DNA of 42,484 nt, taken from positions 1 through 42,484 of the forward strand of contig QCFE01000013.1 in NCBI GenBank assembly GCA_003278425.1, given 5' to 3'. Both the position numbers and the translations under genes were made by a program. Origin of the DNA: Prochlorococcus sp. AG-363-B11. Lineage in GTDB: Bacteria; Cyanobacteriota; Cyanobacteriia; PCC-6307; Cyanobiaceae. Each line of letters opens with the position of its first letter. Position 1 is the stretch's first letter. Shown piece after piece: positions 3,250-41,352 of the stretch. Under the pieces are notes generated by a model. The model did no database searches. It was given only the letters and a program-made list of their open reading frames with translations, and had not been told where the DNA came from.

Positions 3250-3753
3250 TTAGGTAAGAGCCTCACCTTTATTTCTTTTTGCAATGATAAAAGCTGTGAT
3301 ACCAAATACTAGCCTAAAAATCAACATATCAGTTTGAGTGAAATCAAACGAGGGGTAAATATAAATTGACAGTAGAGTGTATGCAAAAGCTATTAGCCCT
3401 AGTTGCAAACAACGTTGCCTTATACTCCAAATAAAACATGTTATAGGAGTGATCACTATTGTAATTATTGCAATGAGAGAAGGTATAGACCTAGCTCTCC
3501 TGGTATAAGAAAAAGTTAACGCTTTCTTGCAGTTAACTAATTGGGACTTGCTTAATCTAAAGTATTCAGTTTGAGGTATGCGAGAATACTTATAACGTTT
3601 GTGAAGCCTTTTTTCTATCTCTTTGTATGAATCTATTTTTAAGACCTTTACAATTTCATCTGGCTTAAGTGTTTTCATTCTGTTTTTAATATCTTTTGTA
3701 ATTCCAATTTTATATAATTCCTTATTTCTAATTAAATATATGTGGCCAGTCAT
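3250..3753 (-). CDS. GIY-YIG-like (T5orf172/MUG113) domain fused to a membrane anchor
   Basis: Residues 4-85 resemble the T5orf172/MUG113 branch of the GIY-YIG superfamily: HIYLI (4-8) and YKIGIT (14-19) replace GIY and YIG, the Arg in NRMK follows, and TEYFRLS (about 62-68) supplies the conserved Glu. Residues 90-160 hold three or four hydrophobic segments, so the domain is predicted to be tethered to a membrane. The GIY-YIG fold is known for nucleases, but nothing in the sequence proves DNA cleavage here. A second protein of the same architecture lies at 27272-27649. The gene stands alone and converges with the DUF393 gene. Confidence 0.65.
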   Translation of the reverse strand: MTGHIYLIRNKELYKIGITKDIKNRMKTLKPDEIVKVLKIDSYKEIEKRLHKRYKYSRIPQTEYFRLSKSQLVNCKKALTFSYTRRARSIPSLIAIITIVITPITCFIWSIRQRCLQLGLIAFAYTLLSIYIYPSFDFTQTDMLIFRLVFGITAFIIAKRNKGEALT

Positions 3754-4742: not shown

Positions 4743-4931
4743 GTGATAATTGTATTTTCATATTGGGATGGGATTGTAAGAGGTATGGGAACTGTTCTGG
4801 CTGTTTTGGATCCAAGTATTAAAATTTTCATTTCTCTTGCAGCTATAGCTGGGCCTTTAAGTATTTTAGGAATAATTTTACTTCTCAAGAAGATTGAAAA
4901 AAATAATCCAGAGCGTATTCGTTGGCGTTAG
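4743..4931 (+). CDS. 62-residue single-pass membrane protein
   Basis: Starts at GTG with AAGGAC six bases upstream, a good ribosome site that decides the start. A hydrophobic segment (about residues 27-48) is followed by a charged tail (KKIEKNNPERIRWR). It overlaps the end of the convergent SbcC-like gene by four bases. Function unknown. Confidence 0.5.
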   Translation: MIIVFSYWDGIVRGMGTVLAVLDPSIKIFISLAAIAGPLSILGIILLLKKIEKNNPERIRWR

Positions 4932-7666
4932 TAAGAATTTGACTCGCTGGTTAATTTATCCAAGCTTACTAATGTATTTGCGATAGATTCGTAGGGTTTT
5001 GGTTCACAAGTTAGGAGAATAACTTGCAAGCCTCTTCTTACAGCTTTCTTGAGCATGGTTTTGATAAATTTAATTCGCGATGGGTCAGAGTTTGCAAAGG
5101 TATCGTCAAAAACCAGTGGAAGGCACCCATCATGTTCAGATTTAAGGACATCAGCCATAGATAAACGTAATGCGGCTGATAGCTGCTCTTTCATCCCGCC
5201 ACTTAGTTGATCAAAATTATAGAAATTTTCTCCTCGGCGAATTTGAAGCCCACTAAAACCACTCCCTTGATCAAAGTTGAGTTGAGTTTCATAACCATCT
5301 GGAATTATGGGTTCCAAGTAATTGTCGATAGATTTAACTAAAGGTTTTGTGTAACGACTTGAAAGATCCGCCTGCGCAGCCCTAAAAAGCTTTTGCAATA
5401 ACCTATGCGAATCAGTAAGTCTCTTATATGCTTGGTAGTCAGCTTTAACAGTTTTCAAATGAACTTCGGCTTTTTCAACATGTGCATAAGGGTCTGAGGA
5501 ACTAATGATGTCGCAATTTCTTTTTGCAGCTCCTGCATCTTCAATGAGTTGTTCTTTTGTTTCTTTTATTGAATGGATTTTCGATTCAATCGTTGAGATG
5601 TCAAATAAACTATTAATTTGCTTTAATGAAGAGAGTTGATTTTTTAAAGCTATAATTTTATCTTCAGCTTCCTTGCGGTCTTTATCTATAGAATTAACTT
5701 CAGTACTTAATTTTTGATAATCACCATGATCCTTTTTTAGATCATTAATGATGTTTTTGAAAGAAGTCAGTTCATTAGCAATAATTTTTAGGTGACTTTC
5801 ATTTTCAGTTAAGCCGTCACGAAAAATCTGAAATTCCGATTCGGCTAATTTCATCGATTTTTCTGCTTCATCAAAAGAAGAAGATGTATCAATTCTATTT
5901 TGCTGAATCGTTTGTTTAAGCATTTCAAGTTCAAACGTTTCAGAGGGAATATTGTGGTCATTAAGTAAATTATTTTGAGTCTCTTTCAGGTTCAAAAGAT
6001 CTTTCTTTAATTCAAATTTTTTCTGTTTGTTCTTTTCTAGGTCTTTTTTCATTAATAAAATTTTTGACTCTGATGCTACTTCTATAAAAGTAAGTTGTTG
6101 TTCCAGAGATAATCTCTCCTTGAAATGATTTTCTGCAACTTTTAAAGATTTTAATCCAAACCGAGAGAGTATCCCTAAATATTCTTTTTGTAAATTCTGA
6201 CATTGAATTTCCAAGGACTTAATTTTGTCAGAACCTCCTGGCCTGATTTCAATTTTTACATTGTCTCCTACTTTTAATTCAAAAGTTTTCTCAAATTGTT
6301 TTTGATCTCCAGCGTGAAGTTCTTCCCCATCAATACGAATTTGCTGATCAGATCTTACAACCTTAAGGCTTGTTGCCATTACCTCCTTTCGAACATGAGC
6401 ATTGAGAATCTTTTGATTTAAATCCCTTAAATGTTCTAAATCTGAAAGACCTATGTTTGAGAAGCAAGCGATTTGTTCTTCTATGCTCTTTCGCTTTTCT
6501 ATAGCTTGGTTCGTTTTTGCTAACTCATCGTTAATTCTAGAAATTGTCTCCTTTATATGAGATTGATCTAATAATATTTGTAATAGGGTAAGAGATTGAT
6601 CTAAGTGTTGTATTTGGTTCTTGAGATTTGCGTGCAGTTTTTGTTTTCTCCTTAGTGAATTAGTAATAAATAAACTATTAGCCTCCTGCTTACTCTGAAC
6701 TTCTTTTAAGGAGCTCTGTTCAGCTTCTTTCTGCCTTGTTTTTACTTGAAGTTGATTGAAACTTCCTAATGCTTTTTTAGATGCATCATGACGCAATTGA
6801 ATCGCTTCCAACACCTTTTTAGAGAGAGTTATTTCACTCTCAAGTTGATGGCGCTTGTCGGCAACCTTTTTGATATGCTTTTGTTCCTCTAATAATGCTG
6901 GCAGTTCAATATCTTGTAGATGGTCAATCCTTTCATTGATTTTAACAAGGTCTTCACTGGATTGTTCGTATTCCTTAAGTTTTGAAAGTGCTATCTCAAG
7001 GTCAAGCTCAGCGGCCTTTAATTCCTCTTCACTCTGCCAAAAAGATGAGCTTTTCTTAATTCCACGACTTGTGAAATTTTCGGCTATTACGTCATCAATT
7101 TTTTTAATAACACGTTGATCATGAGCTGATATCTGAATAGCTGCGCCACCAGTTTTTTCAAGTTGAATTAGTAGAGGGTCAAAGTCGTAATAATCCTTGT
7201 CACCCTTTAATAAGTCATCCCCTGCAGATCCTTGTCTGACCCATAAGTGTGCCCACCGTGTCGGTAGTTTGCTTGCTTGGCGACTCCCGAGTGATTCATT
7301 TACACCAAGTAACCCTGCTAAATATTCTTCTGCTTGCGCCCCTGAGTGTTGGCTACCATTGTTTTCATTAAATAGTATTATTTGCCCAGAAGGACCTGTA
7401 AAACATTTCTTTAAGAGATAGATAGCACCTTTTGCTTCAAATCTGATTTGAATTGTTGGATGACCTAAATGTAGATTCGATCTAAGCGCTTGAACAGGGG
7501 CTCCAGTTGCAGTTGCCTTTAAAAATAGTGTGCGATGAAGGGCTTCAATTAAGGTACTTTTACCAGTTTCATTTGCTCCTCCAATTAATGTGATTTGAGG
7601 AGAAAGATCAATGGAGAGATCAGAATGAATTCTGACATTTTTAATTTGACAGTTGATAAGGCGCAT
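4928..7666 (-). CDS. SbcC/Rad50-like (YhaN-like) coiled-coil ATPase
   Basis: A 912-residue ABC-type DNA-repair ATPase. It has Walker A GGANETGKST (29-38), then about 700 residues of Glu/Lys/Leu-rich coiled coil, then the ABC signature LSGGMKEQL (821-829) and Walker B LPLVFDDTF (849-857). Known relatives pair with an Mre11-type nuclease to process DNA ends. No CxxC zinc hook occurs in the coiled coil, unlike SbcC and Rad50, so it resembles the YhaN branch. The nuclease partner gene lies 6 bases upstream in the same direction, so the two are co-transcribed and probably form one complex. Confidence 0.88.
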   Translation of the reverse strand: MRLINCQIKNVRIHSDLSIDLSPQITLIGGANETGKSTLIEALHRTLFLKATATGAPVQALRSNLHLGHPTIQIRFEAKGAIYLLKKCFTGPSGQIILFNENNGSQHSGAQAEEYLAGLLGVNESLGSRQASKLPTRWAHLWVRQGSAGDDLLKGDKDYYDFDPLLIQLEKTGGAAIQISAHDQRVIKKIDDVIAENFTSRGIKKSSSFWQSEEELKAAELDLEIALSKLKEYEQSSEDLVKINERIDHLQDIELPALLEEQKHIKKVADKRHQLESEITLSKKVLEAIQLRHDASKKALGSFNQLQVKTRQKEAEQSSLKEVQSKQEANSLFITNSLRRKQKLHANLKNQIQHLDQSLTLLQILLDQSHIKETISRINDELAKTNQAIEKRKSIEEQIACFSNIGLSDLEHLRDLNQKILNAHVRKEVMATSLKVVRSDQQIRIDGEELHAGDQKQFEKTFELKVGDNVKIEIRPGGSDKIKSLEIQCQNLQKEYLGILSRFGLKSLKVAENHFKERLSLEQQLTFIEVASESKILLMKKDLEKNKQKKFELKKDLLNLKETQNNLLNDHNIPSETFELEMLKQTIQQNRIDTSSSFDEAEKSMKLAESEFQIFRDGLTENESHLKIIANELTSFKNIINDLKKDHGDYQKLSTEVNSIDKDRKEAEDKIIALKNQLSSLKQINSLFDISTIESKIHSIKETKEQLIEDAGAAKRNCDIISSSDPYAHVEKAEVHLKTVKADYQAYKRLTDSHRLLQKLFRAAQADLSSRYTKPLVKSIDNYLEPIIPDGYETQLNFDQGSGFSGLQIRRGENFYNFDQLSGGMKEQLSAALRLSMADVLKSEHDGCLPLVFDDTFANSDPSRIKFIKTMLKKAVRRGLQVILLTCEPKPYESIANTLVSLDKLTSESNSY

Positions 7667-7672
7667 ATCTAT

Positions 7673-8908
7673 TCAGCCTTTTACGGCAAAGCGATATAAC
7701 TCACATAGAGCTACTCGCGTAATAGACGCCTGTTCAGAATCCTTGTCTTCTTCTTTGATTAATCGTTCCTGCAGTTGACTCGCTACTTGTGAAATTAAAG
7801 GGTTTTCTATATTTCTTGTAAGTTCTTCTAATTCATTAGATTCAGGTGCTTGATGACATTCACCTTTAATTCGCAACCTTAATAATTTATTTTCCAGGTC
7901 TTCTTTTAAAGACTGATATCGCTTATGGCCAGAAAGACTTAACCTCCCACTAATTTCAATTCTTAGCAAATCACGTGCAATTCGACCAGCTGTCAATTCT
8001 TCGATTTGACGTGCAAGACGACTAAGATCTTCATCATTGTTAAACCTAAAACATATGTTGTGCCATTTAATCCGACCAGTAGGAATGGTTTTAACTTTAG
8101 GACGACTTGTACGAGAAACATCAATTTGGAGGATTTGCCCTCGCTGGTTTTTTTCACCCTGATTAAAACGATCAGGCTCTGGAGTCCCTGGATACCAAGT
8201 TTTGTCGTTGACTTGTTTTAAATTGTGCCAATCACCTAAGGCAACGTAATCAATTTCATTAATTGGAAGGCTATTGAGATTAATTAGATTATTTGCATCA
8301 GATTGGGCTTCATCATCAAAAGCATAATCACACCCTTTAAAATCGTTAACTGCACCATGAGCAAGAACAATTCTTGGTTTTGAGGAAGATATTTTTCTCC
8401 AATCGACTTCTCTTAGCCAAAGAGTTGGGTCAGTATTGTCTTTGTTACGCAGTAATGGACATGGGAGAATAACAGCATGCTCAATCTCAATTGGCTCTCT
8501 ATCTAGCAAAAGTTGCAGATTAGGTGCCATCTCTTTTTGATACTTCTTGAAGTCATCACTATGCCAAATAGTTCCCAACGCCCCATGATCATGGTTCCCA
8601 GGAATGGTTAGAACAGGTATGCCTATTTCACCAATCGCTTCTAAAACTTCCGTAACAGACGAAATTGATGGGGTAGGTGAATCAAAAAGATCACCTGCAA
8701 TTAAGATGAATTGTGCTGCTTGTCTTTGAGCTTCATTTCTTATGCGACTAATGACATCAATGCGTTCTCTTTTTAACTTGAAGCGTTTCTCATTATCTTT
8801 TATTTGTAAGTAAGGCTTACCTATTTGCCAATCGGCTGTGTGGATAAAGCGTGCCAACTTGAGAGGTTCTCGATTTTTTTTTAGGTATTCTTTTCTATTA
8901 TCCGTCAA
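7673..8908 (-). CDS. SbcD/Mre11-like (YhaO-like) metallophosphoesterase nuclease
   Basis: A 411-residue calcineurin-like phosphoesterase, the expected partner of the ATPase 6 bases downstream. The metal-binding motifs appear in order: HTADWQIG (23-30), GDLFD (72-76), GNHDH (104-108), AHG (183-185) and GDWHN (225-229). In motif I the usual DxH reads DWQ; the remaining motifs are intact. The C-terminal 150 residues would form the capping and ATPase-binding part. Known function of the family is Mn-dependent end resection or hairpin cleavage together with the Rad50/SbcC-like subunit; activity here is inferred. Confidence 0.87.
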   Translation of the reverse strand: MTDNRKEYLKKNREPLKLARFIHTADWQIGKPYLQIKDNEKRFKLKRERIDVISRIRNEAQRQAAQFILIAGDLFDSPTPSISSVTEVLEAIGEIGIPVLTIPGNHDHGALGTIWHSDDFKKYQKEMAPNLQLLLDREPIEIEHAVILPCPLLRNKDNTDPTLWLREVDWRKISSSKPRIVLAHGAVNDFKGCDYAFDDEAQSDANNLINLNSLPINEIDYVALGDWHNLKQVNDKTWYPGTPEPDRFNQGEKNQRGQILQIDVSRTSRPKVKTIPTGRIKWHNICFRFNNDEDLSRLARQIEELTAGRIARDLLRIEISGRLSLSGHKRYQSLKEDLENKLLRLRIKGECHQAPESNELEELTRNIENPLISQVASQLQERLIKEEDKDSEQASITRVALCELYRFAVKG

Positions 8909-10092: not shown

Positions 10093-11379
10093 TTAAATAA
10101 TGGCTAATCCCCCATTAGTCGCCAAAGTAATCAAGGTATTTCTCTTGGCTTCTAACTTTGATATAAATTTGCTAGATAGTTGTATTAATTTATCAATTTG
10201 GGCCGTTTCCTTTTGTAGGAATCTAACAATATGTTCCTGTTCTCTAAGAGGAGGTAATGGCACCTTTATTTTAAGGAAATCTTCTTTTCTGAAGGAAGGT
10301 TTTATATAGCTTGGAATTAGAGCTCTTTCTAATTGAAAGATACTTGAGAAACAATATTCAAAATAGCTTATAAGACATTGATCACTTTTAGTAGAAATAA
10401 GCATGCAGTTTTGTGAAAGATTAAATCGACCATGAACACTTTTTATAGTCATAGCTTTTGAGCCAACGGTTGTTGAAATAAGTACATTTTCTCCTCTAGT
10501 GTCAAATTCAAACATATTAATAGATGCCATTATTCCATCTCCATTTGTTTGCCCACTATATACAGGGTAAGGACCTCTATTTTTCTGACAAAATGATTTA
10601 GTTAGTTGATGTGAATTCCTCCCCTTCAATGTTTTGAATAAATGGGTTAATTTCCTTACTGACCAATCAGTAGGTATCTTTCCTATATAATCTATCCCTG
10701 AATCTTTTAGAGATATATTTTTGTTTATTCCCCTTGAAATTGAGTTGCGTATCAAAGCCTCTTTTTTCTCTTTTAGGAGCTTAATAAAATCTTTTCTTTT
10801 TCTGATTAAAGATTCAATAAGACCAATTTCTTTATCTAAAAATAGCGATATATTTTTTTGATCACCTATCGAAGGTAAAGCTATTTTAATTGATTTAATT
10901 ACATCGATTTTTATATTCGGCTGGGCACCACCAACTGCTAATGAAAGCAGTCTATCTCTGATTCCAATTAAGCTATAAAACAAAAACTTCGACTCATAAG
11001 TTTTTGAAGGTGGTAAGACACAGCAGGCTTGGTTTACAGTTGATGCAAATTTCAAAATAGATACTTTACCTATTGTCGAACCATACATAGCAATAACAAC
11101 AGAATTAGCCGGATAAATCTTTAAAGAGCGATAGCTTTCTAATGCATACTCTGTAATACTAAGCTTGCTTTTTAAAAGAATAGAGTTATCTAATTCTCCC
11201 GTTAAAACCCAGGGAATAGTTCCATTTAAAAAGTTTAGTGGGTTTCTTCTGTCTGGGGTTGTTCCACTGCCGATACCTTTACATATTCTAGATAGCCTTT
11301 CTTTATTCCAGTGAATTGAAGTTTCCTTAGTTAAATTTACCTTAAAAGACTTTGGCGAATTATTGGTTTTATTAATCAC
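10093..11379 (-). CDS. hsdS: Type I restriction-modification specificity subunit HsdS
   Basis: A 428-residue DNA-recognition subunit. It has the usual two-fold layout: target-recognition domain 1 (about 25-165), a helical spacer with IALPSIGDQKNISLFLDKEIGLIESLIRKR (about 168-200, written in parts), domain 2 (about 235-375), and a second helical spacer with PLPPLREQEHIVRFLQKE ending near residue 410. The gene overlaps hsdM by four bases (ATGA-type coupling), so the two subunits are made together. The recognised sequence cannot be read from the protein. No hsdR is present in the window. Confidence 0.93.
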   Translation of the reverse strand: MINKTNNSPKSFKVNLTKETSIHWNKERLSRICKGIGSGTTPDRRNPLNFLNGTIPWVLTGELDNSILLKSKLSITEYALESYRSLKIYPANSVVIAMYGSTIGKVSILKFASTVNQACCVLPPSKTYESKFLFYSLIGIRDRLLSLAVGGAQPNIKIDVIKSIKIALPSIGDQKNISLFLDKEIGLIESLIRKRKDFIKLLKEKKEALIRNSISRGINKNISLKDSGIDYIGKIPTDWSVRKLTHLFKTLKGRNSHQLTKSFCQKNRGPYPVYSGQTNGDGIMASINMFEFDTRGENVLISTTVGSKAMTIKSVHGRFNLSQNCMLISTKSDQCLISYFEYCFSSIFQLERALIPSYIKPSFRKEDFLKIKVPLPPLREQEHIVRFLQKETAQIDKLIQLSSKFISKLEAKRNTLITLATNGGLAII

Positions 11380-13112
11380 AATACAACTTTTTCGGTAAGT
11401 TCCTTAATTATATTATTTAGATCTCGTAACTCTTCATTAATTTCTTTTAAGGACTTAGGTTCCTTGAAGTTATAGAAGTACCTATTAAATGGAATTTCAT
11501 ATCCAATTTTTATCTTACTTTGATCAACCCAGGCATCATTGTAATGAGGAAGAATTTCTTGCTCTATGTATGAGTTGATTTCTTCTGAAAAAGGAATACT
11601 CTCTATCTCTCGAAGAGTTCTATCGGCTTGAGGAGTGCCATCCATATTAATTAGAATCTCCCCACGCTCATTTCTTTTGGGCCTGTCAATGCTAATTGAG
11701 CGGTAGCCAAACTCCTCATTATCAAGAATCTTACAGATTAACTTTTTATTGCTTCTTAATTCTTTGAAAGCTTGAAAAATTTCTGTGATTTTTAAAATGT
11801 GTTTATCTTCTATTTCTTGTCGTTTATTCCCTAGGCTCTTAGGTAACTTACTTGAAAAGCTACTTGCATCAATTAATTGAACCTTGCCTTTTCTTTTGGA
11901 AGTCTTTTTGTTTGTGAGAATCCAAATGTATGTGCTTATACCAGTATTGTAAAACAATTCTTGTGGTAATTGAACAATGGCTTCAATAAGGTCATTTTCA
12001 AAAAGATAGCGACGTATATCACTTTCTCCTGAACCCGCAGACCCAGCAAACATTGGCGATCCATTGAGAACAATTCCGATTCGACTACCACCTTCGCAAG
12101 CTGGGCGCATTTTGGAAATTAGATGTAATAGAAACAAAAGAGAACCATCACTGACTCTTGGGAGGCCGGGTCCAAAGCGACCTGAAAAGCCTTTGGATTT
12201 ATGTTCGTGCCTAACTTCTTTTTGTGATTTTTTCCAATCCACTCCAAAAGGAGGATTGGAAAGCATATAGTCATGTTCTTCATCATTATTATAATCATGA
12301 GACAATGTGTCCCCTAAGAAAATCTTTGTACTATCTTGTCCCTTTATTAGCATGTCAGCTTTACAGATTGCATATGATTCGGGGTTAATTTCTTGGCCAG
12401 ATATCACGAACTGTGCTGCAGGATTAATTGTTTTTAAATACTCGGCTGCTCCACTTAACATGCCCCCTGTTCCAAAGGCAGGATCATAAAGTTTTCGTAA
12501 AATATTTGATTTTGTAAGAGCTTCTTGATCATTCACCAAGAGAAGATTAACCATCAGACAAATTACTTCTTTAGGTGTGAAATGTTCCCCTGATGTTTCA
12601 TTAGTTAATTCTGCAAATTTTCTAATGAGCTCTTCAAATATCATGCCCATTTTGAGATTACTTACATTTTTGGGATGAAGGTCTACCTTTGTAAAATGCT
12701 TTATTATTAAGAAAAGAAGCCCTGATTCATTGAGATGCTTGATTTGATTTTCAAAGTCAAACTTTTCAAAAATTTCTCTAATAGAAGGACTCAGTAATTT
12801 GACATATCTTCGTAAATTATTACTTATTAAGGATGCTTTTGAATCGATTACCAGGTTTTGTAAACTTATGAAGGAGGCTTTTGAATCCAACCCTAGAGAT
12901 TTATCTAATAGGAAATCTATTGATTTTGGAGTTTCCTTTTGATGAATTAAGTCCTCTTCTATATTAGTTGGCAGCATTGTTTCCAATACGCAATCAATAC
13001 GCCTCAATACAGTTAAGGGTAGAATGATTTTGCCGTAATCCGATTTCTTGTAATTATCGCGAAGTAAATCAGCGGTTGACCAAATAAAGGCAGAAAGATT
13101 GTTACCCGCCAA
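11376..13112 (-). CDS. hsdM: Type I DNA adenine methyltransferase subunit HsdM
   Basis: A 578-residue N6-adenine methyltransferase. It has an HsdM N-terminal helical region, then GEHFTPKEV (175-183), AdoMet motif DPAFGTGG (210-217) and the catalytic NPPF motif SNPPFG (285-290). Length and motif spacing are normal, and no frameshift is visible. It is followed by hsdS with a four-base overlap. A tRNA-Gly lies about 130 bases upstream on the opposite strand, a common integration neighbourhood. Without hsdR the pair would methylate DNA but not cut it. Confidence 0.95.
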   Translation of the reverse strand: MAGNNLSAFIWSTADLLRDNYKKSDYGKIILPLTVLRRIDCVLETMLPTNIEEDLIHQKETPKSIDFLLDKSLGLDSKASFISLQNLVIDSKASLISNNLRRYVKLLSPSIREIFEKFDFENQIKHLNESGLLFLIIKHFTKVDLHPKNVSNLKMGMIFEELIRKFAELTNETSGEHFTPKEVICLMVNLLLVNDQEALTKSNILRKLYDPAFGTGGMLSGAAEYLKTINPAAQFVISGQEINPESYAICKADMLIKGQDSTKIFLGDTLSHDYNNDEEHDYMLSNPPFGVDWKKSQKEVRHEHKSKGFSGRFGPGLPRVSDGSLLFLLHLISKMRPACEGGSRIGIVLNGSPMFAGSAGSGESDIRRYLFENDLIEAIVQLPQELFYNTGISTYIWILTNKKTSKRKGKVQLIDASSFSSKLPKSLGNKRQEIEDKHILKITEIFQAFKELRSNKKLICKILDNEEFGYRSISIDRPKRNERGEILINMDGTPQADRTLREIESIPFSEEINSYIEQEILPHYNDAWVDQSKIKIGYEIPFNRYFYNFKEPKSLKEINEELRDLNNIIKELTEKVVL

Positions 13113-27271: not shown

Positions 27272-27649
27272 ATGGATTCTTATATTTATTTAATAGAGAA
27301 TGGAGATCTTTATAATATTGGTTCAACTAATAATCTTGATAAAGTTCAGCAATCGTTAAGGCCAGGAAAACTTTGTGCTTCATTAAGAAACAAGGAAGCT
27401 GTTTATATTTGCAAGAACTTACATGTTAGATACTCTGAAGTCCGGCTTCCTGGGACCGATTATTTTAGGCTTAATAACTCTCAATTATTAGAATGCAAGT
27501 TAATGATGAAAAGTGAAGGAGCAAGTGGTTATTTTCAACCTATTTTTAAAGGAGGAACTATAGTTGCTACATTTATAATGGCTTGGCTTGGCATTTCCCT
27601 TTTCTTAATTAAATTTGGGGTTAACCCAATTCTTTCAAGATTTCTTTAA
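27272..27649 (+). CDS. Second GIY-YIG-like protein with membrane anchor, degenerate active site
   Basis: A 125-residue paralogue of the protein at 3250-3753. YIYLI (4-8) and YNIGST (14-19) stand for GIY and YIG. The conserved block near residue 62 reads GTDYFRLNNSQLLECK, matching TEYFRLSKSQLVNCK in the first copy, but the Glu is replaced by Asp and the Arg after YIG is not evident. A single membrane segment (about 98-117) closes the protein. The loss of key residues suggests a binding and not a cutting role. Confidence 0.62.
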   Translation: MDSYIYLIENGDLYNIGSTNNLDKVQQSLRPGKLCASLRNKEAVYICKNLHVRYSEVRLPGTDYFRLNNSQLLECKLMMKSEGASGYFQPIFKGGTIVATFIMAWLGISLFLIKFGVNPILSRFL

Positions 27650-36915: not shown

Positions 36916-38208
36916 ATGACTAAATTACGCCCTCTCCCAACTACTGGTGCCCTAACTGGAATTCTCGAGGCTCTAGCTTTTTTCCGCGATCCTAGCTTCG
37001 CCAAAAGGCGATTTGATCGTCTTGGGAATGTTTTTGAGACATCAATGCTTGGCCAGCAAATGGTGTTCATTCAGGGGAATAAAGCTATTACTGATTTGTT
37101 ATCACAACCAGAGGCAATTGAAGGCTGGTGGCCGGAGAGTATACAGCAACTATTAGGTAGCCATTCACTCGCAAACCGCAATGGAATAGCTCATAAAGCA
37201 AGGAGAAGGGTAGTAGCCCAGTTATTCTCATCTTCGGCACTTCAACGCTATAGTCCTGGGATTATCAAATTAATTGATGAGCTCGGCGAAGAACTAAGAA
37301 CTGCAAAAGCACCTCTCCCTTTAGCCGATCAAATGCGACGTTTCGCTTTTTCCGTTATCGCTAAAACTGTACTTGGACTGGAGGGCAATGATCAAGACAA
37401 GTTATTTTCTGATTTCGAGATCTGGACCAAGGCTCTCTTCTCAATCCCAATTGCTCTTCCAGGAAGTCCCTTTGCTAGCGCTCTCAAAGCAAGAAAACGT
37501 TTACTTGAAAAACTTCAACGAATACTTAGCCAACCTATCAATGGCAAAGGTGGCTTGGATTTATTAGCAGGGGGGATTGATGAAGCAGGCATTTCTTTCG
37601 CAGATGAGGATTTGGGAGAACAACTACTTCTACTATTATTCGCTGGATATGAAACTACAGCTTCTGCGTTGAGCTGTCTAATGCGAGAATCTCTTCTCAA
37701 TCCACAAATAGAAACATGGCTTCGTGAAGAAATAGATACTCTGGACTGGCCTCCAACCCCTAATCAAGCCGCTACAGTCTACGACCCAACCAATGCTCCA
37801 AGACTAGATGCCCTCGTAAAGGAAGTAATGCGATTCACTCCACCAGTAGGTGGTTTTTTTCGCCGCACTAAGCAACCTTTGATCTTAGATGGCATTGTCG
37901 TGCCTAATAATCGTGTAGTGCAAGTAGCTTTAATTGCTTCTAACCGTCATGGGATTGGTGATCTAGATATCTTTCGACCACAACGTCACCTAGAGAATGA
38001 ATCTTCTTTAAGACTGATAGCTTTCGGTGGAGGCGAGCGTGTATGCCTTGGCAAATCGTTAGCTGAACTTGAAATCAGACTGATGGTAGTCGGATTATTT
38101 CGTAAATTACAACTTGAAGCTATACCCGATCAAGACTTCACCCTGCGACAGATTCCCAGTCCATCTCCCCGTGATGGCTTATTAGTAAAGGTAAAAATGA
38201 ACAAGTAG
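36916..38208 (+). CDS. Cytochrome P450 (CYP120-like)
   Basis: A 430-residue heme monooxygenase. The I-helix oxygen-binding motif is AGYETT (243-248), the K-helix ExxR is EVMR (303-306), and the heme-ligand loop FGGGERVCLG (370-379) holds the axial Cys377. The PERF-like region reads FRPQRH. No N-terminal membrane anchor, so it is a soluble bacterial type. The layout is closest to what I know of cyanobacterial CYP120, which oxidises retinoids; the substrate here is not known. The start chosen is ATG 36916; a TTG at 36907 is also in frame. No dedicated ferredoxin or reductase gene is adjacent. Confidence 0.93.
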   Translation: MTKLRPLPTTGALTGILEALAFFRDPSFAKRRFDRLGNVFETSMLGQQMVFIQGNKAITDLLSQPEAIEGWWPESIQQLLGSHSLANRNGIAHKARRRVVAQLFSSSALQRYSPGIIKLIDELGEELRTAKAPLPLADQMRRFAFSVIAKTVLGLEGNDQDKLFSDFEIWTKALFSIPIALPGSPFASALKARKRLLEKLQRILSQPINGKGGLDLLAGGIDEAGISFADEDLGEQLLLLLFAGYETTASALSCLMRESLLNPQIETWLREEIDTLDWPPTPNQAATVYDPTNAPRLDALVKEVMRFTPPVGGFFRRTKQPLILDGIVVPNNRVVQVALIASNRHGIGDLDIFRPQRHLENESSLRLIAFGGGERVCLGKSLAELEIRLMVVGLFRKLQLEAIPDQDFTLRQIPSPSPRDGLLVKVKMNK

Positions 38209-38412
38209 ACAGAAAGCGTGCTATGTCCTTTAAAGCCCCCTACAAGTTTATGATCACTGGTCCTTGAAGCGCGGGCTACGTTTTCTGCGAACTATAGAAA
38301 TTTACTCAAACTTTCTATCATTTTTATATCTTTATTTTTTTAGGATCTAGTTGTTTTTAGACGTAAGCGTCAAACTTCTCTATTCTCAGACCGTATCAAC
38401 TGAAAATCTAAC

Positions 38413-38428
38413 TGTGAGTAATCTCACA
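38413..38428 (+). promoter_or_regulatory. CRP-type operator, copy 1
   Basis: TGTGAGTAATCTCACA has two perfect half-sites of the CRP consensus TGTGA-N6-TCACA. It starts 111 bases before the ATG of the peptide gene at 38524. If the GATAGT at 38472 is the -10 element, the site centre is about 60 bases upstream of transcription, as for class I activation; this is inference. Confidence 0.75.
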
Positions 38429-38488
38429 ATCCCCATTGAAGTGAATCAATACGTCTTTGATTAATTCAAGAGATAGTTAAGACATCGC

Positions 38489-38505
38489 AGGGATCTATCA
38501 TCCCT
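38489..38505 (+). other. 5'UTR hairpin, copy 1
   Basis: AGGGAT (38489-38494) pairs with ATCCCT (38500-38505) around a 5-base loop, ending 18 bases before the start codon. The same hairpin recurs in copies 2 and 3 with a 6-base loop and, in copy 2, a changed pair. Confidence 0.6.
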
Positions 38506-38523
38506 CACAAACTTCTCAAACCA

Positions 38524-38781
38524 ATGAACTTCTCGAAATCAAAAAGCAACACCTACGACGAAGAACTTCAATTGGAAGAACTCCATACTATGAATGGTGG
38601 GGGTTTCTTTTCCAAACAATTCGATTTAATAACTGATTACTGGCTTGGTGATGTAATTAGTAATATCACTCATAGCAATCGCAGAATAAAAGAACAGACT
38701 GGTAATGGAGCAGGCTCAGCAAACGTTGTACAAGGACCTGATGGAAAGGGTTGTACTGAACGCAGATTGAACAACAGATAA
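38524..38781 (+). CDS. Double-glycine leader peptide 1 (85 residues)
   Basis: A short precursor peptide. Residues 1-26 form a leader with the pattern LQLEELHTMNGG (15-26), the ELxLxxLxxxxGG arrangement cut by C39-type peptidase transporters. The 59-residue remainder begins GFFSKQFDLITDYW, is rich in Asn, Gly, Ser and Arg, and holds a single Cys near its end, which argues against a lanthipeptide. Expected fate is secretion after leader removal; the exporter is not in the window. It shares its control region with the two peptides at 40069 and 41182, and is followed by a terminator. Confidence 0.75.
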   Translation: MNFSKSKSNTYDEELQLEELHTMNGGGFFSKQFDLITDYWLGDVISNITHSNRRIKEQTGNGAGSANVVQGPDGKGCTERRLNNR

Positions 38782-38805
38782 AACCCTAATCAATATTAAA
38801 TTTAT

Positions 38806-38828
38806 AAGCCCCTCAACTGGGGCTTTTT
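38806..38828 (+). terminator. Rho-independent terminator of peptide gene 1
   Basis: AAGCCCC (38806-38812) pairs with GGGGCTT (38819-38825) around a 6-base loop, followed by a T run to 38828. It lies 24 bases past the stop, so the peptide gene is transcribed alone. Confidence 0.88.
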
Positions 38829-38973
38829 AGGGGCTATTTAGAAGAGATTACTACCTTCATTAATTCTTTAATTAACGAATCTGCAAAAAGATAAAGTACT
38901 TACTTCGTAAAGTTGGAAAAAGTTTTATACATATAACACTGTTCTCAATGGCGAGGGTGATATACAAGAAATC

Positions 38974-39675
38974 TCAACAAGAAGATTCTTCAAAATATAA
39001 GCCTTGTTTATTTAAATAATTCAAATCTACTATTTTTAGTCTCTTATTTTCTTCTTGAATTATTCCACGAGCTATTAGCTTTGTTAAAGTTCTAGATGTT
39101 GTTTCTCGTGAGAGGTTTGAAATCAAACCTAATTCAAATTGAGACAATGAAGGGATTAAGCTAGTGGGACTAGATTGTATAGAACTTTTACAAGCTAAGT
39201 ACGCTAAAGTATTTAATAAACGCACTGTTGCATTGCTTGATTGAATTGCAAATCTCTGATTTAAATCACGCAAGCGGCTAGCTTCTAGCTTAAACAACTC
39301 AAAAGAAAAAATAGGTTGCCTTTTAAGCAATTGTTTTATTGGTTCTAATCTAAGTTTCAATACACTTCCAGAAGTTAAAGCTACAACATCTGCAGATCTT
39401 GAGCAGTTTTTAATGAGAGACATTTCTCCAAATACATCCCCTATGCCTAAAACTGACATTATCACTTCATCACCATCAGAAGTGTAACGACGAACTTTCG
39501 AAATACCTGAGCAAATTATAAAAATAGATTCATCCCAATCTTGCTCCATTATGAACTGTTGACTAATTTCATACTTAGATAGTATATGACGGTACAAGAG
39601 TTGATCACACTGATCAATAGTTAAATTAGAAAATAGTTTGATTGACTTAAGATCTTGAGCTGTAAATTCTTTCAT
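38974..39675 (-). CDS. CRP/FNR-family transcription regulator
   Basis: A 233-residue regulator. Residues 10-125 form a cyclic-nucleotide-binding domain; FGEMSLIKNCSRSADV (82-97) keeps the Glu and the Arg-Ser pair that hold the phosphate of cAMP in CRP. After the dimer helix (about 125-150) is a winged HTH with SQFELGLISNLSRETTSRTL (178-197). The recognition helix SRETTSR is like that of E. coli CRP (SRETVGR), whose Arg-Glu-xxx-Arg read TGTGA. No FNR-type Cys cluster is seen at the N-terminus. Three TGTGA-N6-TCA(C/A)A sites lie within 2 kb, one per GG-peptide gene, so these are its likely targets. The start is ATG 39675; a TTG four codons upstream is less likely. Confidence 0.88.
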   Translation of the reverse strand: MKEFTAQDLKSIKLFSNLTIDQCDQLLYRHILSKYEISQQFIMEQDWDESIFIICSGISKVRRYTSDGDEVIMSVLGIGDVFGEMSLIKNCSRSADVVALTSGSVLKLRLEPIKQLLKRQPIFSFELFKLEASRLRDLNQRFAIQSSNATVRLLNTLAYLACKSSIQSSPTSLIPSLSQFELGLISNLSRETTSRTLTKLIARGIIQEENKRLKIVDLNYLNKQGLYFEESSC

Positions 39676-39847
39676 GGTTAAATACAAATCATACGCAGTG
39701 GTAGTTTTTTTTACTTAGCATATAAATATAAGAGCGAATAAAGTTAAATTATACACTAAAAATTTGCTCTTATATTAGTAAATTAAATTTTCTTTTATAT
39801 TTACGAGGACTGCACTTTCAGAGAAGCACAGAGATTTAACAAACCTT
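39676..39847. other. Upstream region of the regulator gene with a 10-bp inverted repeat
   Basis: ATATAAGAGC (39726-39735) and GCTCTTATAT (39766-39775) are exact complements 30 bases apart, about 50 bases upstream of the regulator's ATG. They may form a hairpin in its leader RNA or a binding site. No TGTGA-type box was found close to this start. No gene lies here. Confidence 0.5.
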
Positions 39848-39956
39848 ACTCAAACTTTCTCTCTCTTATTTCTCTTTACTGTTTAGGTTCTACTTATTTT
39901 TAGCAATCCGAATCAAACGTCTCTAATCTCAGAACTATAGTAAATAAATATATAGC

Positions 39957-39972
39957 TGTGACTAATCTCAAA
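39957..39972 (+). promoter_or_regulatory. CRP-type operator, copy 2 (one half-site imperfect)
   Basis: TGTGACTAATCTCAAA: the left half is perfect and the right half has A instead of C at one position (TCAAA). It starts 112 bases before the ATG at 40069 and 282 bases from the divergent regulator start. Confidence 0.65.
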
Positions 39973-40032
39973 ATCACCATTGAAGTAAATCAATAAATCT
40001 TTGATTAATTTAAGAGATGGCTAAGGCATCGC

Positions 40033-40050
40033 AGGGATCTATACATCTCT
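40033..40050 (+). other. 5'UTR hairpin, copy 2, with G-U replacing a G-C pair
   Basis: AGGGAT (40033-40038) pairs with ATCTCT (40045-40050) around a 6-base loop. Relative to the other copies one C has become T, which still pairs as G-U, so the stem is retained despite the change. Confidence 0.55.
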
Positions 40051-40068
40051 CACAACCTTATTCAAACA

Positions 40069-40167
40069 ATGAATAACTCTGAACTAACTCTTGATCAACT
40101 AGCTGAAATCAATGGTGGTGATCCAACTATCGTAATAGAGGAAGTTATCACTACCCATATAGGATAA
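40069..40167 (+). CDS. Double-glycine leader peptide 2 (32 residues)
   Basis: Leader MNNSELTLDQLAEINGG (1-17) shares its first eleven residues exactly with peptide 3. The core after GG is only 15 residues, DPTIVIEEVITTHIG, acidic and beta-branched, with no Cys. The gene is far below normal size limits for gene calling, but the shared leader and the duplicated control region support it. Probable secreted signalling or antagonistic peptide; the actual role is unknown. Confidence 0.72.
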   Translation: MNNSELTLDQLAEINGGDPTIVIEEVITTHIG

Positions 40168-40310
40168 AAGAATTTTCCAGAAGCTAAAAGAAGAGATGAT
40201 TTTCAAAAGGGAAGATCCTAATTTGTATTCCAAGTTGCAATTCTTTGTGACGCAGGAACTCATTTGTTGATTACATCAATACTTTTAAAGGTATTAACAC
40301 CTCAATTCTT

Positions 40311-40448
40311 GTGATGATTTTAGTCGTTGCTATCAATACGGTTCTTCTTAACTTCTTTGTAAGAAAAATGCTTAGCCAAGCAGTAGCAGAGAACAAAAAA
40401 GGAAGCTTCAACAGGAGACGATCGATCGGCTATCTCCTAAGAAGCTAG
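40311..40448 (+). CDS. Possible 45-residue membrane microprotein
   Basis: From GTG at 40311 (or ATG 40314): a hydrophobic helix (ILVVAINTVLLNFFV, about residues 3-17) then a basic tail (ENKKGSFNRRRSIGYLLRS). The frame is open upstream without a start to 40239, so it may be a truncated longer protein. It lies between peptide genes 2 and 3 on the same strand, where an accessory or self-protection protein would be expected, but nothing proves that role. Confidence 0.4.
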   Translation: MMILVVAINTVLLNFFVRKMLSQAVAENKKGSFNRRRSIGYLLRS

Positions 40449-40649
40449 AGAGCTTAAATGAGTATTCACAATCCGGGGAAAGAAAGGATTAGGGTTGGAA
40501 CTTCCCTATTAAATGCATCCTTACAGGTTTACAAATTGCTGCTATTGCTATTGTCGAGATACTTAAAACTATACCGTATGAGCAATTGCAGCCTTATAAT
40601 GGTTGGCATTAACTTTTGGTATTAAGAGAATGTATGAGGATCAATAACC

Positions 40650-40817
40650 ATGCCACGACTACCTAACTGGCGTTATATGTCACTACGGACTAAACGTCTT
40701 ATACTTCTTCCTGTAATAGCATTTGCAGTGTTGGGTTTAATTAGAGCTTATACGCCAATAATTACTCTTGGTTTAGTTGTTTGGTTCTTATATAGATGGA
40801 CTCAAGAGAGAAGGTAA
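40650..40817 (+). CDS. 55-residue membrane protein between peptide genes 2 and 3
   Basis: Starts MPRLPNWRYMSLRTKRLI: a basic N-terminus, then two short hydrophobic segments (about 17-30 and 35-48) separated by RAYTP, ending WTQERR. AGGA lies about 9 bases before the ATG. Size, charge and location beside secreted-peptide genes resemble bacteriocin immunity proteins, but this is only an analogy. No family recognised. Confidence 0.55.
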   Translation: MPRLPNWRYMSLRTKRLILLPVIAFAVLGLIRAYTPIITLGLVVWFLYRWTQERR

Positions 40818-41069
40818 GTCAAAAGTTGATTTAATTAAGCAGAGATTAATAACTTCTGAAATCCTTTAAACTATTTCATTGGATTAGTTCCCATCTAGAA
40901 TCAACCCAACTGTTTTATTGGCCAAGAGCATTTCTTTATTCCATCACCCCCAAAATGGTTGGCTTCTTTTCTCATGATCAATAAATTAAATGGGTGTTCT
41001 CGATCTCCTCTTCTCAAAGCAAGAAGATGATCAACAAACATGTAGTTCTATATCCAGTAAAGATTTGGC

Positions 41070-41085
41070 TGTGACTAATCTCACA
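41070..41085 (+). promoter_or_regulatory. CRP-type operator, copy 3
   Basis: TGTGACTAATCTCACA: both half-sites match the CRP consensus perfectly. It starts 112 bases before the ATG at 41182. Similarity with copies 1 and 2 begins just before this box; the sequence further upstream is different, so the box and the following 112 bases are the minimal shared unit. Confidence 0.78.
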
Positions 41086-41145
41086 ATCCCCATTGAAGTG
41101 AATCAATACGTCTTTGATTAATTCAAGAGATAGTTAAGACATCGC

Positions 41146-41163
41146 AGGGATCTATACATCCCT
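41146..41163 (+). other. 5'UTR hairpin, copy 3
   Basis: AGGGAT (41146-41151) pairs with ATCCCT (41158-41163) around a 6-base loop, 18 bases before the start codon, as in copies 1 and 2. Confidence 0.6.
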
Positions 41164-41181
41164 CACAACCTTATTCAAACA

Positions 41182-41352
41182 ATGAACAACTCAGAATTAA
41201 CGCTTGATCAACTACATCACATTGCTGGAGGTGCTCCTCACATTACTATCTGGAACAAAAGAAGAAGGTTTAATATAAATCAAAATATTTGGACCTCTGG
41301 AGGTACTACAAGTATCTGGACATCAGGAGGAGTTACAAGTTTAAGTAAATAA
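41182..41352 (+). CDS. Double-glycine leader peptide 3 (56 residues) with internal repeats
   Basis: Leader MNNSELTLDQLHHIAGG (1-17) is nearly that of peptide 2. The 39-residue core starts APHITIWNKRRRFN and then has the unit IWTSGGxTS twice (36-44 and 45-53), ending LSK. The core has no Cys, is basic and Trp-bearing, and has no negative charge, which suits a membrane-active or surface-binding peptide. Processing is expected after GG17; the repeats contain further GG pairs. Terminator-like hairpin follows. Confidence 0.75.
   Translation: MNNSELTLDQLHHIAGGAPHITIWNKRRRFNINQNIWTSGGTTSIWTSGGVTSLSK

Follow-up and report, generated by a model that had tools for sequence, protein, structure and literature searches.

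The 42,484-nucleotide contig QCFE01000013.1 of Prochlorococcus sp. AG-363-B11 (the window) carries, between positions 38,413 and 41,352, three genes for small peptides with leaders ending in Gly-Gly (GG), each behind a copy of the same upstream block. We propose, at a probability of roughly 0.6, that this interval belongs to a CRP-type, cyclic-nucleotide-controlled regulon of exported GG-leader peptides whose core modules recombine. The window is contig C13 of its own genome assembly (G000; 1.49 Mb, 47 contigs, 82%-complete), whose gene content and relatives mark it as a picocyanobacterium. An earlier sequence-only reading had reported three GG-leader genes at 38524, 40069 and 41182 behind a copied block, an observation confirmed here: all three open reading frames (ORFs) are present, with cores of 59, 15 and 39 residues. 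That reading was right about the leaders, the cassette, the exchange of payload and the scarcity of cysteines, but missed the CRP-type promoter, the regulator gene inside the interval, the name of the peptide family (CCRG-2) and the mosaic make-up of the cores. The features are as follows.

38413..38428, + strand: operator 1, strict CRP-type palindrome TGTGA-N6-TCACA (palindrome search and cassette listing)
38435..38450, + strand: second, weaker palindromic box of copy 1, ATTGA-N6-TCAAT (sequence reading; conserved alignment stretch)
38524..38781, + strand: peptide 1, 85 aa, with a 26-aa leader ending in NGG and a 59-aa core (ORF)
38974..39687, - strand: CRP-family regulator gene, ATG at 39675, candidate reader of the operator (domain matches)
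39957..39972, + strand: operator 2, with altered right half-site TCAAA (cassette listing)
39979..39994, + strand: second box of copy 2 (sequence reading)
40069..40167, + strand: peptide 2, 32 aa, with leader MNNSELTLDQLAEINGG and a 15-aa core (ORF)
41070..41085, + strand: operator 3, strict palindrome (palindrome search)
41092..41107, + strand: second box of copy 3, its centre 22 bp past the operator centre (sequence reading and alignment)
41131..41136, + strand: possible -10 hexamer TAGTTA, 23 bases past the second box (third conserved alignment stretch)
41182..41352, + strand: peptide 3, 56 aa, with leader MNNSELTLDQLHHIAGG and a 39-aa core (ORF)
41284..41337, + strand: core module of peptide 3, NIWTSGGTTSIWTSGGVT, common to two peptides of genome G091 (core comparison)

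What had been called the operator has the sequence of a CRP palindrome, TGTGA-N6-TCACA; behind it stands a weaker box, which in copy 3 reads ATTGA-N6-TCAAT and lies 22 bp further on, centre to centre. We infer a promoter made of two tandem CRP-family boxes ahead of a weak -10 element. The same TGTGA-N6-TCACA consensus is given for SyCRP1-type cAMP receptor proteins and picocyanobacterial CRP regulons in passages of PMC2633013, which describe it for the CRPs of Synechocystis and Anabaena and place the -10 box ~22 bp past the site. Operator start and ATG are separated by 111, 112 and 112 bases in copies 1, 2 and 3, exactly as first reported, and this segment is identical at 96/114 positions between copies 1 and 2, 106/114 between copies 1 and 3, and 102/112 between copies 2 and 3. 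The reported alignment of copies 1 and 2 over some 220 bases was likewise reproduced, with 80/115 identities in the ~113 bp upstream of the operator (300 random pairs of window 113-mers gave a mean of 0.19 and a maximum of 0.57); upstream of its operator, copy 3 does not align (23/196 with copy 1, 50/157 with copy 2). A search of G000 with the block returned five copies (E 6.7e-57 to 1.3e-28), two of them on contig C4, and in all five the operator is followed at 107-112 bases by a frame with a GG or GS leader, which supports the earlier proposal of a promoter-leader cassette copied with a changing payload. Four of the five strict palindromes of G000 precede the cassette peptides and the fifth lies at C8:55735; operator 2 of the window is a one-mismatch case. 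A small inverted repeat, AGGGAT...ATCCCT, occupies window positions 41146-41163 between the -10-like stretch and the ATG, and recurs in similar form in many aligned cassettes. A phage-borne cassette was looked for in viral contigs, where the exact composite pattern had 0 matches, only exact matches being counted.

The putative reader of the operator is encoded on the minus strand in the gap between the first two cassette copies. Its product matches PF00027 (cNMP-binding; 64.5 bits) and PF13545 (Crp-type helix-turn-helix; 40.1 bits), both over cut-off, and its best relatives among solved structures are CRP/FNR-family regulators, including E. coli CRP at ~3e-12. In E. coli CRP, the Arg-Glu...Arg of the recognition helix reads TGTGA half-sites, and the recognition helix of the window regulator is SRETTSR; judged from this sequence, the protein has a helix matching the TGTGA palindrome and is a candidate reader of it. 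The Gly-Glu and Arg-Ser motifs of the cAMP pocket are kept, although the position of E. coli CRP Thr127 looks like Leu by eye, so that the ligand is uncertain. In genomes G083 and G141, the orthologous gene is preceded by a strict palindrome at 153 and 151 bases, respectively, and these sequences suggest that at least two regulator genes are self-regulated.

The number of palindromes followed the presence of this regulator over a survey of 151 family genomes. The regulator was scored as present where an orthologue was found at E below 1e-40, weaker matches being scored as absent, and 27/151 genomes had one (the related genome G010, referred to below, stands outside the 151). The 27 regulator genomes held 157 strict palindromes (mean 5.8, median 4) and the 124 others 154 (mean 1.24, median 1; Mann-Whitney p 2e-7), with 15 and 106 occurrences, respectively, of a backward-pattern control (means 0.56 vs 0.85). 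Eleven genomes had at least six palindromes, and ten of these carried the regulator. Related genomes are not independent in these tests, which gives importance to contrasts inside genera. In genus g1, two of 14 genomes carried the block, and the orthologue and a CHASE2 protein occurred in these same two; one of the pair has all three close to an NHLM-type C39 exporter. In genus g79, G091 combined the orthologue with 22 palindromes, and G120, G143, G162 and G177, with no orthologue match at E 0.001, had 4, 1, 2 and 1. Finally, the 21 genomes whose orthologue carries the helix RETxSR had a mean of 6.95 palindromes, whereas the five with RGT in its place had 0, 0, 0, 2 and 2 (p 0.002; G131, where the helix is not covered, and G010 were left out of this comparison).

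These distributions bear on the possibility that, with the peptides exported as proposed, some other CRP/FNR-family protein recognises the palindrome, or that the window regulator represses the cassettes, its position between two of them being incidental. Weaker cNMP-domain and CRP-like matches exist in many genomes that lack the orthologue, G109 keeps palindromes in its absence, and activation by the regulator is itself a proposal drawn from sequence. Palindrome number nevertheless tracks the orthologue, also within genera, and drops with a changed helix residue, and in each of G000, G010 and G091 GG genes lie in linkage with the regulator gene. We regard this explanation as unlikely.

The leaders place the peptides in or beside a known family. 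Against the NCBIfam CCRG-2 model NF033456 (cut-off 24 bits), peptide 3 scored 26.3, peptide 2 just under the cut-off at 22.4, and peptide 1 well below it at 14.1; the likeness lies in the leader, and the window peptides, one of three being over cut-off, belong to or border CCRG-2 by profile score. CCRG-2 peptides are known for induction during co-culture and for release into the culture medium. In other genomes, too, several CCRG-2 genes stand behind a block of this kind. The family is described in PMC8120280, which cites Aharonovich and Sher 2016 for it, as secreted small prochlorosin-related peptides with a motif ending in GG, found in Prochlorococcus and Synechococcus; the CCRG-2 descriptions in that source do not include a CRP operator, a shared promoter block, divergent pairs or module-shuffled cores. 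As the sequence-only reading had noted, peptides 2 and 3 share their first eleven residues, MNNSELTLDQL. Compared pairwise over codons 2-11, the four ELTLDQL-type copies of G000 differ by 20 synonymous and 0 non-synonymous changes, in line with leader conservation at the protein level. Over 25 leaders of six genomes, the ratio of non-synonymous to synonymous divergence (dN/dS) was 0.34 for codons 2-11, 0.24 for codons 5-11 and 0.68 for codons 12-17, for a set that was picked by a motif fixing several residues, which lowers dN, and that does not include window copy 1. An anti-phage role was considered and rejected, the three peptides matching 0 PADLOC families.

The cores had been called unrelated. 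This holds among the three window genes and was abandoned after 80 cores had been compared, relatives sharing modules. The set derives from 87 motif-defined frames; removing a G099 frame that lies opposite the regulator and merging cores that were nearly identical left 80 non-redundant ones. At a local score of 50 or more, 65 core pairs were found; three shuffled sets yielded no such pair, their best score being 49. For 37 of the 65, the matching segment spans under 60% of each core; 41 pairs link different genomes and seven link different leader classes. In 27 triples, spread over six cores, separate pieces of one core matched two peptides that do not match each other. The module NIWTSGGTTS... 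of peptide 3, for instance, recurs in another genus, where one G091 peptide combines it with GVFAKLDGF... and a second with RWADIRDHN..., and IVDFGGS...GWWTVDGADF follows a CCRG-2 leader in both G000 and G010, and a leader of a second class in G091. Window peptides 1 and 2 had no partner at score 50 among the 80 cores. These sharing patterns suggest that cores across genomes are assembled from interchangeable short modules.

Such variation could also be that of plain bacteriocins, diversified by an arms race with immunity and receptors and without signalling. Bacteriocins usually leave the cell by way of GG leaders and C39 exporters (passages of PMC3140520), and the cores vary strongly. In domain and NCBIfam profile searches no bacteriocin model reached its cut-off for any of the three window peptides; for the class II bacteriocin family PF10439 (gathering score 27.1), peptide 2 reached 13 bits and peptides 1 and 3 had no match. 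GG peptides of Synechococcus elongatus, moreover, enable biofilms (PMC4997328, in part). Of the alternatives to an exported-peptide regulon with recombining modules, this one survives best, although we consider it somewhat improbable.

The regulon appears broader than the peptides. A composite pattern that includes the operator was written from the G000 and G010 sequences and applied to the fetched loci (the listed palindrome places and others inside them, G010 included), allowing at most one mismatch in the operator and three in the whole pattern. This gave 119 oriented composite sites: a GG leader, as defined by a loose motif, follows 44 of them, a different frame follows 68, and no frame follows seven. 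A GG leader stood behind 22/24 sites with 0-1 mismatches (13 of these 24 being from the two genomes that supplied the pattern; 9/11 outside them) and behind 22/95 weaker sites with 2-3 mismatches. Whether the block mostly lacks a GG-leader frame behind it, which would have spoken against the earlier proposal, thus depends on how close a match is demanded; because the leader is found behind nearly all of the best sites and fewer than a quarter of the weaker ones, the block looks like a regulon promoter rather than only a peptide cassette. The idea that GG peptides are the only targets was accordingly dropped. By eye, the other frames include signal- or repeat-sequence proteins, prepilin-like proteins and a Nif11-like precursor. 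The GG label errs in both directions, at least two of the 44 being doubtful (G105:1677290 and G170:C82:5390) and the frame at G091:577836, with leader MNNTEVTLDQLAEIAGG, being a real GG leader labelled as other. A GG-like frame lay 50-220 bp from a strict site, in either direction, in 49/103 cases in regulator genomes (G010 included) and 2/6 in others; at random positions in the fetched loci, looking downstream in one direction only, the figure was 330/6120. Spacing is kept across genera, with 106-112 bases from operator to ATG in 29/44 GG cassettes.

In eight places, six in G091 and two in G010, one palindrome lies between two divergent GG genes. On one side stands a CCRG-2-type or related GG gene, 107-108 bases away in seven places and 133 in one; on the other, 96-97 bases from the palindrome, stands a gene of a second leader class (~QELSxDELKDVxGG), in one case with a TTG start. 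One of these palindromes, G010:C23:2092, has one altered base. From this arrangement, a single palindrome can apparently act for a divergent pair of GG genes whose leaders differ in class. On the minus strand at L011:3132, what follows the second-class 5' region of a palindrome is not a GG peptide but an 86-aa frame, presumably similar to the start of FtsH. Other arrangements were seen at individual sites. At L163:2876-7081 (G155:C1:2280375 onward), five promoter-plus-gene copies follow one another with an exact 870-bp period, each unit holding a strict palindrome and encoding one and the same ~204-aa protein, which looks like a signal-peptide protein. At L181, 176 bases past the operator at G152:C25:9334, a 254-aa frame seemingly joins, by eye, a Nif11-like GG leader to a prepilin-like start. 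The palindromes and CCRG-2-type genes of G109:C1 (L214, L215) may be relics or belong to another regulator.

Gene content in this genome and its relatives points to a possible source of the cyclic nucleotide and, in some relatives, to a possible export route. CHASE2 proteins were present in 23/27 regulator genomes vs 29/124 others (p 3e-9). In G000, a CHASE2-cyclase gene lies on contig C24, adjoined by a gene whose end resembles the G010 CHAT protein and by a GGGTRGEC-type gene (by eye). A 19.7-kb contig of G010 brings together GG genes, the regulator, a ShlB-type pore, a CHAT-domain protein, a protein with CHASE2 and nucleotide-cyclase domains, and exporter genes, namely a C39-ABC gene (TIGR03796, 987 bits), an HlyD gene (TIGR03794, 215.7 bits) and a further ABC fragment at the contig end. 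CHAT proteins and adenylate cyclases near CRP are also described for island Syn_GI122 of marine Synechococcus, as in G010:C23, in a passage of PMC7522525 that does not mention GG peptides or an exporter. Regulator and exporter genes lie within ~20 kb of each other in G105, G091, G170 and G172 as well (BLAST clusters), the C39-ABC of G170 being spread over three frames. The exporters near the regulator in G010 (over cut-off) and, judged from BLAST clusters, in G091, G105, G170 and G172 are those of the NHLM (NHLP/Nif11) export system TIGR03796/TIGR03794, whereas the window genome has no TIGR03796 match over cut-off and the window peptides lack a Nif11 or nitrile-hydratase leader. Against the cut-off of 853.3 bits, the best G000 match to TIGR03796 was 408.8, and one of 15 genomes (G010) exceeded it. 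The check for a C39-type exporter in this genome, proposed by the sequence-only reading, thus returned one long divergent C39-ABC protein and no typical exporter.

The lack of a typical exporter in the G000 assembly would be expected if the cassettes were decaying duplicates without present function in this strain, as would the altered half-site of copy 2 and its 15-aa core. The 20 synonymous against 0 non-synonymous leader changes and the spacing kept across genera speak against decay, which we hold to be quite improbable. Least probable of all is that the cores are modified, prochlorosin-like peptides (ribosomally synthesized and post-translationally modified): CCRG-2 is described as prochlorosin-related (PMC8120280, in part) and a Nif11-like precursor stands, by eye, behind one G172 palindrome, whereas profile searches gave no Nif11 or nitrile-hydratase leader match for peptides 1-3 and the cores, unlike prochlorosin cores with their several Cys/Ser/Thr residues for lanthionine rings, hold at most one Cys (one in peptide 1, none in peptides 2 and 3); the sequence-only reading had likewise noted that they lack multiple Cys, and prochlorosin membership was rejected on these grounds.

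For the preferred reading, a CRP-type regulon of exported peptides, the following sequence of events may be envisaged. A membrane CHASE2-domain cyclase, encoded on another G000 contig, would answer an outside cue with a cyclic nucleotide, probably cAMP. The CRP-family protein (38974-39687) would then bind TGTGA-N6-TCACA, and probably also the weaker box 22 bp nearer the gene, and switch on the copied cassettes. The peptides would be made with their conserved leader, which a C39-peptidase ABC exporter would remove by cutting behind the GG, and the short, cysteine-poor cores would be released to affect neighbours or kin outside. Copying of the promoter-leader cassette, with recombination of core modules, would give rise to new members. 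Several results weigh against this scheme. The 82%-complete G000 assembly holds only the long divergent C39-ABC protein described above, and strong C39 exporters were found in 9/27 regulator genomes vs 20/124 others (p 0.057), so that a tight tie between regulator and exporter over the family is not supported and the two are tied at most weakly. G109 has six palindromes and CCRG-2 genes without an orthologue (E 0.001 or better) or a CHASE2 protein, G015 combines three palindromes with a CHASE2 protein but lacks an orthologue, and G018 has a RETxSR orthologue without any palindrome. Besides the apparent Leu at the Thr127 position, the window regulator scored 66.5 against a cut-off of 266 for the NCBIfam CRP equivalog NF008732, and 68 of the 119 composite sites precede frames other than GG leaders.

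Elsewhere in the window, the frame directly upstream of copy 1 (36916-38205) carries what we take to be a cytochrome-P450-like heme motif, and neighbouring frames at 10096-13112 and 4931-8908 are, by eye, presumably type I restriction-modification subunits and SbcCD-like proteins. Two small proteins, at 3253-3753 and 27272-27646, fall in one BLAST cluster and presumably resemble GIY-YIG/T5orf172-type domains.

GG peptides and C39 exporters are already known in cyanobacteria (PMC3140520, PMC4997328, both in part). The closest described parallel is EbfG1-4/PteB of Synechococcus elongatus, where several GG peptides are exported by a C39-peptidase ABC transporter (passages of PMC4997328), a likeness by description; ebfG1-4 form one transcript whose regulation is called unknown there, whereas here each gene of the scattered copies has its own CRP-type promoter. 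CRP sites were predicted for MIT9313, MIT9303, CC9311 and CC9605 in PMC2633013, many targets being hypothetical proteins; the word bacteriocin is absent from that text, and its passages on these regulons do not name a link to GG peptides. A literature search of titles and abstract openings, with few subscription journals covered, returned no link between CRP and GG peptides and no module-shuffled cores. Both the CRP-regulon reading and the mosaicism of the cores are apparently new.

For these organisms, the literature searched gave no switch for the co-culture response of CCRG-2 peptides; if our reading is true, it names a switch, an operator and a candidate sensor cyclase, and predicts which strains carry the system. 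More tentatively, and with less than even confidence, one cyclic-nucleotide-gated CRP-type switch over cassette copies spread through the genome, some of them divergent pairs on one palindrome, and modules shuffled between genes, leader classes and genera might together yield a strain-specific exported peptide bar-code for recognising or fighting neighbours. If true, this would provide a rule for the diversification of exported peptides in abundant ocean phototrophs, in which modules are reshuffled behind a fixed leader.

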